Part shown: positions 31,567 through 54,498 of the stretch, piece by piece | Position numbering within the stretch: position 1 is the first letter of the stretch | Layout: every line of letters starts with the position of its first letter | NCBI RefSeq assembly: GCF_000495475.1 | Contig: NZ_ASGZ01000061.1 | Location: forward strand, 1 to 64,000 | Length of the DNA stretch: 64,000 bases | Source of the DNA: Candidatus Halobonum tyrrellensis G22 | Lineage (GTDB): Archaea > Halobacteriota > Halobacteria > Halobacteriales > Haloferacaceae | Direction: 5' to 3' | Made by a program: the position numbers and the translations under genes | The notes under the pieces: model-generated | What the model saw: the letters and a program-made list of their open reading frames with translations, nothing else | Told to the model about the DNA's origin: nothing | The model's database searches: none

Positions 31567-32412
31567 GTGTTCGAAGACGCCTTCGTCAGTCTCGTGGGTA
31601 CGAACCCGATACTGCAGGCGCTCGTCGGCGGGTTCGTCATCGCGGGGATGAACATGGTCGGCGCGCTCCTCGTGTTGGTCTACCGCGACCCCAGCGAACG
31701 GGCGCTCGACGCCGCGCTCGGGTTCGCGGCGGGCGTGATGCTCGCCGCCTCGTTCACGAGCCTCATCGTCCCGGGTATCGACGCGACCGAGGTGCTGGTT
31801 CCGGGCGTGCCCGCGACCGGACTCCTGCGGCCGATACCCGTCATCGCGGGGCTCCTCCTCGGCGCCGCCCTCCTCGACCAGGCGGACCACTGGGTGCCGC
31901 ACGTCCACGTGCTGATCACGGGTCGGAGCCGGGCCGACCAGACCGTCTCGGACGCCGGGCCGGGCGTCGCCGCGGTGCTGCTGTTCATCGTCGCGATCAC
32001 GATCCACAACATGCCCGAGGGGCTGGCTGTCGGCGTGGGGTTCGGCTCCGGCGACATCGAAAACGCGGTCGGGCTGATGCTCGCGATCGGGATCCAGAAC
32101 GTCCCCGAGGGACTGGCGGTGTCGGTCGCGGCGGTCAACGCGGGGTTCGACCGAACGAGCTACGCCGTGCTCACGGGGGTCCGGTCCGGGCTCGTCGAGA
32201 TCCCGCTCACCGTCCTCGGCGCGTACGCCGTCGGGCTGGCGACGCCGATACTCCCGTACGCGATGGGGTTCGCCGCGGGCGGGATGCTGTTCGTCATCTC
32301 CGACGAGATCGTCCCCGAGACGCACGCGCGGGGCAACGAGCGGCTGGCGACGCTCGGGACGATGTTCGGCGCCGCCGTGATGCTGTATCTCGACGTTGCG
32401 CTCGCTGCTTGA
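31567..32412 (+). CDS. ZIP family metal transporter
   Basis: A 281-residue, eight-TM ZIP carrier for zinc or another divalent metal. The TM4 metal motif is HNMPEGLAVGVGFG; TM5 has QNVPEGLAVSVA, and DEIVPETHARGNE near the end matches the GufA-type branch. The cytosolic loop after TM3 is short (TGRSRADQ). Starts at GTG 31567 with a CATACTTGAT element about 30 nt upstream. Convergent with the M20 hydrolase gene; no regulator nearby. Confidence 0.92.
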   Translation: MFEDAFVSLVGTNPILQALVGGFVIAGMNMVGALLVLVYRDPSERALDAALGFAAGVMLAASFTSLIVPGIDATEVLVPGVPATGLLRPIPVIAGLLLGAALLDQADHWVPHVHVLITGRSRADQTVSDAGPGVAAVLLFIVAITIHNMPEGLAVGVGFGSGDIENAVGLMLAIGIQNVPEGLAVSVAAVNAGFDRTSYAVLTGVRSGLVEIPLTVLGAYAVGLATPILPYAMGFAAGGMLFVISDEIVPETHARGNERLATLGTMFGAAVMLYLDVALAA

Positions 32413-32731
32413 GCCGATCTCTCGGGGACTTCCCGCGGTAGTCTCGCGACTGTAAGCGGGAACGCGACCGCTGGTGGTGACGATACGACCGCGAAAGCCC
32501 CCGGTCGCGCGGGTCGGGGGACTCGCTGCGCGCTTCGCGCTCCCTCCGGTCGCGCTCAGTGCTTGCTTCGTCCGCCTTCCCCGCGCGACCGGCCCCTTTC
32601 AGTCCCACCCGTCGGCTGTCGGGCCGGGCGTCGCGTCGGATCCCCGGCGCCGCGGCGGAGAGTCGGCCGGCGGTCGTCACCTCGGTCGGACGAGCGTCGT
32701 CGTCCGACCGCTCACTCGTCTCCCGTGCCGT
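32413..32731. other. 319-bp convergent gap holding a structured repeat element
   Basis: Between the ZIP gene and the M20 hydrolase, both of which end here. It contains the structured element described at 32491-32610. No coding frame is credible. Confidence 0.5.
32491..32610 (+). repeat. structured intergenic element, copy 1
   Basis: A 13-bp inverted repeat, CCGGTCGCGCGGG at 32501-32513 and its complement at 32580-32592, encloses GACTCGCTGCGCGCTTCGCG and GGTCGCGCTCAGTGC. The left flank is GCGAAAGCCCC; the right ends CCCCTTTCAGTCCCACC. A related element in the same orientation lies at about 53990-54117. Confidence 0.55.
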
Positions 32732-53881: not shown

Positions 53882-54416
53882 TCTTGTGTGTCGTTTCGGG
53901 GGGCGACGTTTGGGCGTTGCGGGATGGGGTCGTCGCGTTCGTCGTCACCGTACTCGTCGTCGGAGGATGGATCGGTGACTCAGCAACCGTCGTGACCGCG
54001 AAAGGGGCCGCCCGTAGCCACGTCCTCCCCACCGGACTCGCTCGTCGCTCGCGCGCTTCCGGCGCGGACGACCCGAGCCGAGGGTCTCGCGAGGTCACGC
54101 TCAGTTCGCTCGTGTGACCGGAGCCGTGCCGCCACGCGCCGATAGCCCGGCTGAGCGGTCGTTCCGTCTCCCACCGCGAGGGAGCGAAGCGACCGAGCGG
54201 GCCGACGACTGAACGGAACGAGCGGAGCGAGTGAAGTGAGTGACGAGCGCTTTTGATCGACCGTTTACCGAACGAGGCCGCTCCGCGGCCGAGCGCAGCG
54301 TAAAAGGTCGGGGTCCGGGCTGCGGCTCGTCTCCTTCGAACCCAGCCGGACACCTCGCGCCGCTCGCGGCGACGGCTCGCGCACGGGGCGCTCGCCATGG
54401 TGCTCGCGGCAGAAGT
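53882..54416. other. 535-bp gap with a structured element and purine-rich repeats
   Basis: No convincing gene. It contains structured element copy 2 (53990-54117). Further right is a GA-rich run of AACGAGCGGAGCGAGTGAAG type (54211-54250) and a perfect GGCCGC-TCC-GCGGCC hairpin at 54276-54290, then tRNA-Ser. A 77-codon TTG-start frame at 53884-54117 overlaps the element and is not trusted. Confidence 0.45.
53990..54117 (+). repeat. structured intergenic element, copy 2
   Basis: Starts GTGACCGCGAAAGGGG, holds GGACTCGCTCGTCGC, and ends in the hairpin GGTCAC (54091) ... GTGACC (54112) enclosing GCTCAGTTCGCTC. Compared with the element at 32491, GGTC[GA]CGCTCAGT and GGACTCGCT are shared. The stem base that differs (G versus A) is matched by a compensating change in the other arm. 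Confidence 0.5.
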
Positions 54417-54498
54417 CGGTGGGGCTGGGATTCGAACCCAGGAGGCTTGCGCCACCTGCTTTCAAGGCAGGCGCAATGGGCCACTCTGCCACCCCACC
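54417..54498 (-). tRNA. tRNA-Ser (anticodon TGA)
   Basis: An 82-nt class II tRNA on the minus strand: acceptor GGTGGGG/CCCCACC, discriminator G, anticodon stem CCTGC/GCAGG with loop CTTGAAA (anticodon TGA). Variable arm, then T arm CTGGGTTCGAATCCCAG. No encoded CCA, no intron. Confidence 0.95.

Follow-up and report, generated by a model that had tools for sequence, protein, structure and literature searches.

E1, a copy of a mobile and structured element family of Halobacteria, in Candidatus Halobonum tyrrellensis G22

The element at its locus and its relatives

The window, that is, the whole stretch of DNA analysed, comprises positions 1 to 64,000 of contig C61 of the Candidatus Halobonum tyrrellensis G22 genome (3.68 Mb in 72 contigs). 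In the gap between two convergent genes, one for a ZIP transporter that ends at 32412 on the plus strand and one for an M20 peptidase on the minus strand, lies an element, E1, with the following parts.

32485 to 32613, plus strand (the G-rich strand is the minus): E1, a full-length copy of the family (cmsearch; model R1, 121.5 bits, E = 5.7e-24; model R2, 111.1 bits)
32493 to 32497, plus strand: 5' side of the closing helix, GAAAG (helix 1, paired at 99.3% in alignment A4 and 99.4% in alignment A5)
32498 to 32500, plus strand: 5' side of the 3x3 internal loop, CCC, conserved by the counts in long copies
32501 to 32513, plus strand: 5' arm of the variable 13-bp stem, CCGGTCGCGCGGG (13 of 13 Watson–Crick pairs in E1; covariation in the family)
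32514 to 32579, plus strand: inner helices and loop, with the conserved words CTCGCTGCGC.. and GTGCTTGC..TCG (covarying helices in the A2 and A4 alignments)
32580 to 32592, plus strand: 3' arm of the variable stem, CCCGCGCGACCGG, which pairs with the 5' arm
32593 to 32595, plus strand: CCC, 3' side of the internal loop (from the counts in long copies)
32596 to 32600, plus strand: 3' side of the closing helix, CTTTC (covariation in A4 and A5)
32602 to 32610, plus strand: conserved 3' motif GTCCCACCC (GGGTGGGAC on the minus strand), nearly invariant among loci most of which had been found by that motif

The fold of E1, read inwards, begins with a GAAAG/CTTTC closing helix and the 3x3 C/C internal loop; a 13-bp stem with every position paired comes next, and then the inner helices with their loop. 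A first-pass annotation had placed a strong intergenic hairpin at 32491–32610, with the words GCGAAAG, GGACTCGCT and GGTCGCGCTCAGT, and both hairpin and words are present. No Rfam family matches E1 at its gathering score; the sole Rfam match, of 19.1 bits against a cut-off of 59.5, lies at 32665–32709, adjoining E1. The word GTGGGACTGAA may resemble the haloarchaeal CRISPR repeat. Inverted ends or a target duplication are not clear at E1 when judged by eye.

The same annotation had proposed 53990–54117 (E2) as a second copy, because of words shared with E1. The words exist, but the similarity between E1 and E2 is at chance level. Within the window, GGACTCGCT occurs at three places on the plus strand, and GCGAAAG at five on the plus and one on the minus strand. 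The local alignment score of E1 to E2, 29, ranks 21st of 974 scored places, the best of which scores 37, and the best non-self scores of 25 random 129-nt queries (30–50) each lie above it. With filters off, the covariance model, which scored E1 at 121.5 bits, gave matches down to 7.2 bits, none of them overlapping E2, and in BLAST searches of the genome neither element was listed when the other was the query. By covariance model, local alignment and BLAST, E2 was therefore rejected as a member of the family, and represents a chance word match. The covarying pair that had been noted in the closing stem thus rested on a false partner; the true family does covary there, between A–U and G–C. A tRNA gene (an Rfam tRNA match) lies at window positions 54417–54498 on the minus strand, about 300 nt from E2.

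The annotation's proposal to look for more copies in the genome and its relatives was rewarded. BLAST with E1 found five further full-length copies in its own genome, and a covariance model built from those six returned seven full copies and one short form (C34:62319–62361); two of the copies form an inverted pair on C27. The exact 20-nt 3' motif is present in at least 119 genome stretches; among the 80 listed, 79 stand under haloarchaeal names and the remaining one under ‘uncultured archaeon A07HN63’. When the best eight candidates per genome were scored with strict filters, model R2, built from 59 sequences, matched in 336 of 391 Halobacteria genomes (86%), representing 76 of 86 genera, and had no match in the other 55. 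In a sample of the phylum, 48 of 294 genomes carried R2 matches, all among the 53 genomes of the order; there were none in the 241 outside it, 226 of which had been placed outside from the kinship ordering of the genome list. Twelve well-assembled genomes, chosen among those with strong matches and with the best 150 candidates scored, had 120, at least 150, 121, 14, 94, 20, 15, 102, 20, 41, 105 and 21 matches. A phage origin was considered and rejected: only two IMG/VR contigs contain the 18-nt motif, and E1 is unmatched in phage records.

Searches of open-licence papers by sequence string and by topic found no description of the family. In the part of the text available of a survey of 104 candidate RNAs, no word begins with ‘halo’ (PMC2864571), and the available part of a study of seven haloarchaeal genomes does not describe the family (PMC3404096). 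We conclude that, in the genomes searched, the family is confined to Halobacteria, and that it is apparently unnamed.

The covarying hairpin and the strand that probably folds

Family units are 115–135 nt long. In the long copies, a GRAAG/CTTYC closing helix encloses the 3x3 C/C internal loop, followed by a 13-bp stem whose sequence is nearly free and by inner helices. The 80 listed loci contain 82 exact 3' motifs, from which stem pairing was assessed without a model; a 5' sequence anchor was present for 66 of these and absent for 16, and the 61 long copies among the 66 were used. Stem positions 3–12 were paired in 67–95% of these 61 copies, against 41–71% with shuffled partners (G.T counted), and pairing was 31% one step past the 13th pair. 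All 13 pairs were formed in 22 copies and at least 11 in 44. In the model-fitted alignments, 92.7% of cells were paired in A4 (57 rows) and 94.3% in A5 (137 rows), with 312 two-sided changes against 97 after shuffling in the former and 895 against 276 in the latter; because the copies share ancestry (two sequences are common to A4 and A5), cell counts overstate independence. In slid controls, paired cells dropped to 36–47%. The closing stem reads GAAAG/CTTTC in 38 of the 57 rows of A4, GGAAG/CTTCC in 17 and neither in two, and its outermost pair is flipped from G–C to C–G in 24 rows of A5. The covariance model and covariation test that had been suggested for E1 thus gave a result far above shuffled and slid controls, and the evidence for covariation, as in structured non-coding RNA, is overwhelming.

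The internal loop remains fixed beside this variable stem. CCC/CCC was found in 180 of 192 parsed long copies and the 5' CCC in 186, whereas only six of 14 hairpin-less forms had the 5' CCC (Fisher p = 4e-6), a comparison that is not of like with like, the long copies coming mostly from a model that contains the loop and the short ones from a pattern. Since the short forms lose the CCC constraint, the loop seems to be constrained only while the hairpin is present. Nested within the hairpin loops of L112, L114, L125, L145, L167 and others are inserts of a pair of small, perfect hairpins, such as GAGAGCGAAGCTCTC..CATCACGAAAGGCGC..GCGCCTTTCGAACGA, with stems that vary yet pair; they are perhaps a second family of variable palindromes.

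The mismatches that the stem tolerates differ between the strands. In 152 distinct stems with at least nine Watson–Crick pairs (from 167 distinct stems among the 192 parsed), the plus strand has 1842 Watson–Crick, 53 A.C, 10 G.T and 71 other cells, and across the two alignments A.C outnumbers G.T by 72 to 23. An A.C on the plus strand is a G.U on the minus strand. Forty copies contain A.C only, six G.T only and four both. Interior mismatches of the kinds C.C, C.T and C.A number 76, against 17 for G.G, G.A and G.T, and the former are the more stable kinds when read on the minus strand. The A.C lean is shared by seven of the eight A5 genomes, several of them on just 1–4 cells, with G135 as the exception (A.C 2, G.T 3). 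Of the 184 rows of 100–150 nt (of 196 rows), 174 have the lower RNA folding energy on the minus strand, with a mean difference of 5.7 kcal/mol, while for 200 random segments the strand difference had a mean of -0.4 and a standard deviation of 7.6. Of the unpaired bases on the plus strand 78% are C or T, which leaves the minus strand purine-loaded. Helix 5, which is near-invariant, counts against a minus-strand reading, since it contains two conserved pairs that are G.U on the plus strand. Owing to the shared ancestry of the copies, p-values for the strand bias are optimistic. Because the mismatches tolerated are G.U, G.A and G.G on the minus strand, we believe that the folded molecule is probably this G-rich strand, most simply as an RNA.

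Mobility, genomic context and age

Elsewhere, in several lineages, the moving unit consists of two hairpins placed tail to tail, about 305–395 bp in all, with inverted ends and 8-bp target duplications. Terminal inverted repeats GGTNCTGTTCAG / GGTNGTGTTYAG were found in G231 (probably Halonotius roseus), G050 and G239 and, by eye, also in several MAGs. Tail-to-tail pairs make up 16 of the 22 clusters in G231; their ends resemble GGTACTGTTCAGAGTAG on one side and GGTCGTGTTCAGATAAG on the opposite one, and are recognisable in 14 of these pairs and not in two. The flanking 8-mers were alike at seven or eight of eight bases in eight of the 14 pairs, five of them perfectly, against a mean of 0.77 and a maximum of five in 500 shuffled controls, with offsets of 2–6 nt allowed at either flank, in the data as in the controls; with fixed offsets, the best single register accounted for at most six of the 14 pairs at six of eight bases. 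For one duplicated G231 pair, the uninterrupted (empty) site is present in two congeners. In G050, the 8-mers on either side of a pair are identical, and in G239 four copies share the same core although they sit at unrelated sites; the loci with an 8-bp target duplication outside G231 are L307 and L390, the latter a G239 copy with a perfect one. The family's mobility is therefore well supported. The earlier suggestion of a mobile miniature element or an RNA was sound as regards mobility, borne out by family members in other genomes, and as regards covariation far beyond chance; the E1/E2 pair offered as its evidence was not.

Two of the G239 copies, L388 and L391 (contig C7, near 1577 and 1814 kb), have their ends swapped, the split 8-mer GTCGCGAG standing to the right of the former and to the left of the latter. 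This suggests an inversion, perhaps of about 237 kb, by recombination between the two copies, and would mean that copies of the family can mediate genome inversions. In L266 (G300), tandem 48-nt partial units (GAACCGCCAGAAAGCCCCGCTAG..) flank a pair on both sides.

Inverted ends together with an 8-bp target duplication make a DDE-type transposase acting in trans the likely mover. An autonomous parent was sought among 20 pairs of ends 150–3000 nt apart (L099–L307), and no transposase-like ORF was seen by eye. The ends look like IS6 ends; however, a transposase of the IS6 family was rejected as the mover, since PF13610 was found in none of 10 genomes at E 1e-10.

We compared the family with known mobile repeats, as far as the parts of the sources drawn on here describe them. 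Like REPINs or REP doublets (BIMEs), it consists of small high-copy intergenic repeats with two inverted units per replicative element (PMC3116915, PMC3733652), and it has a hairpin with compensatory changes and a variable spacer (PMC3116915). It differs from REPINs in being found only in Halobacteria, in its units of 115–135 nt with a conserved internal loop, and in its inverted ends and 8-bp target duplication; nor does it have by the stem the GTAG/CGTC tag of REP repeats (PMC3733652), its ends being GRAAGCCC and CTTYCRGTCCCACC. With MITEs it shares short length, inverted ends, target duplication, many copies and structure (PMC10969869), whereas its core hairpin keeps one shape throughout most of a class while the stem sequence is free, and a parent transposon was not found. 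The PATEs and SMRs of Haloquadratum are likewise small haloarchaeal repeats that lack a transposase, contain palindromes or have inverted ends, and often nest in one another, with 177 and 194 PATEs per genome; their terminal-only core deletions resemble our short forms (PMC3119063). They differ in that SMR-A targets PATE palindromes, and they are reported without target duplication where our family has one of 8 bp, a distinction drawn from the description and not from sequences (PMC3119063). Covariation is typical of a curated Rfam family of structured RNA, although E1 matches none. The family is thus a MITE- or REPIN-like mobile element.

Genomic context was read for the 90 clusters to which a home-made caller gave a neighbouring gene on each side; 45 are tail-to-tail pairs and 45 singles, and seven overlap a predicted ORF. 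The gap is tandem for 26 of the pairs, divergent for 14 and convergent for five; for the singles, read in the orientation of the element, it is divergent in 19 cases, tandem in 18 and convergent in eight. No single gene orientation is required, which argues against a specific cis target. The distance from core edge to start codon has a median of 107 nt (quartiles 81–212) and that to the stop codon a median of 69 nt (quartiles 46–153), so that the elements are mostly clear of promoters and terminators.

Several features recur around the cores. From -26 to -8, L099–L178 show a purine-rich base at each third position; a coding reading of the upstream region was rejected, the open frame having a median of 23 codons against 16 and 18 in the other two. 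In genus g2 (probably Halorubrum), the word TTATAA occurs no more than 60 nt upstream of the core in 10 of 25 copies (L268–L287), in seven of them at -30, and a truncated duplicate of the 5' end of the core often precedes it; this is a possible embedded promoter. The word CCTCCCCAGCC, maybe another repeat module, recurs 3' of single elements, for example in L158, L166 and L268–L287.

We then asked what stands at the position of E1 in relatives. Its neighbourhood was matched in 127 of 148 genomes of the family to which the organism belongs; 30 loci were returned, and the 14 relatives in which both gene ends seemed close were read. G183 has a full element with 12 of 13 pairs, its arms differing from those of E1 at eight and seven of 13 positions. 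G650 has a hairpin-less short form, G296 and G145 have remnants with other end points (by eye), and G026 could not be anchored. Nine of the 14 have no element; eight of their gaps measure 20–66 nt, and that of G311 is 324 nt long with no model match. Most relatives read at this locus thus lack E1 and 55 of 391 genomes have no match, which together indicate that it is dispensable. E1 probably predates the split of the genera that share its locus, the alternative being that the elements there are independent insertions. An ancestral empty site is a less likely account of the short forms, because G650 is short where the genome of E1 and G183 have the hairpin, and G296 and G145 have remnants; the comparison suggests that short forms arise by loss of the hairpin.

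In g2 (52 genomes), one locus was read in 30. It has a match in 13, near full length in 11; the species differ there by paired changes, and A.C intermediates occur. Where positions are orthologous, the stem stays paired while its sequence turns over, and the fixed internal loop stays unpaired.

What keeps the stem paired

In E1 we probably have an old single copy, inherited vertically, from a family of small, non-autonomous mobile elements that spans the class, and the hairpin seems to be kept by selection after insertion. A transcript reading through a tail-to-tail pair, whichever side it came from, would carry one hairpin in its G-rich form. By a weaker inference, the pair could serve as orientation-independent RNA punctuation between genes, either as a block or as a processing or stability hairpin. 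Such punctuation would render insertion harmless or even useful, and on this proposal that is why the shape would be kept. Taken whole, with an old copy, a non-autonomous mobile family, a functional hairpin on the G-rich strand and a pair that is perhaps RNA punctuation, we consider this explanation rather likely. An extended version, to which we give little credence, has a class-wide mobile structured RNA spreading an orientation-independent insulator, whose GGGTGGG..GGGG-hairpin-GGGGG might be a quadruplex–hairpin hybrid stabilised by K+. The haloarchaeal cytoplasm contains molar potassium, and all four G tracts of at least three are present in 154 of 179 parseable copies (192 distinct); loss of the 5' CCC tract in eight of 14 hairpin-less forms counts against a quadruplex.

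A stem could also remain paired without selection, if template switching or conversion from arm to arm copied each mutation in a repeat that is otherwise selfish and neutral. G–C/C–G flips, which would be slow by stepwise RNA evolution, are very common in the stem in A5, L149 alone among the 192 long copies forms a perfect palindrome across the CCC loop, and the identical-core copies with swapped ends in G239 imply that recombination between inverted halves or copies occurs. Arm correction would, however, erase the 3x3 CCC/CCC loop that persists in 180 of 192 copies, and it sits poorly with strand-asymmetric mismatches and with pairing changes that pass through A.C intermediates between orthologues. 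Because of this persistent unpaired loop, the strand bias and the orthologous intermediates, we favour selection, and regard arm correction as somewhat unlikely, though to be taken seriously.

Alternatively, the folded strand might act as single-stranded DNA read by a transposase or nuclease, as in REPINs and IS200/IS605, so that compensation would reflect selection for mobility. A bias to one strand suits a single-strand substrate, and REPINs have compensatory stem changes and a doublet architecture in the part of the source drawn on here (PMC3116915). The moving units, on the other hand, have the inverted ends and 8-bp duplications of DDE transposons, and the stem is kept at orthologous positions, where selection for mobility would not be expected to operate by itself; we think this reading unlikely. 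That the whole pattern is a product of chance or low complexity in GC-rich haloarchaeal intergenic DNA describes E2 well, its similarity to E1 being at chance level, but for E1 it is refuted by the family-wide model matches, the shuffles and the slid controls, and we give it virtually no weight.

With matches in 86% of the sampled Halobacteria genomes and at least 150 in one of them, this apparently unnamed repeat would rank with the more common structured elements so far known from archaea. Its orthologous stems, with different letters and the same shape, amount to many natural replicates, which could separate selection, a strand-specific RNA function and arm correction as the keeper of a paired mobile hairpin.
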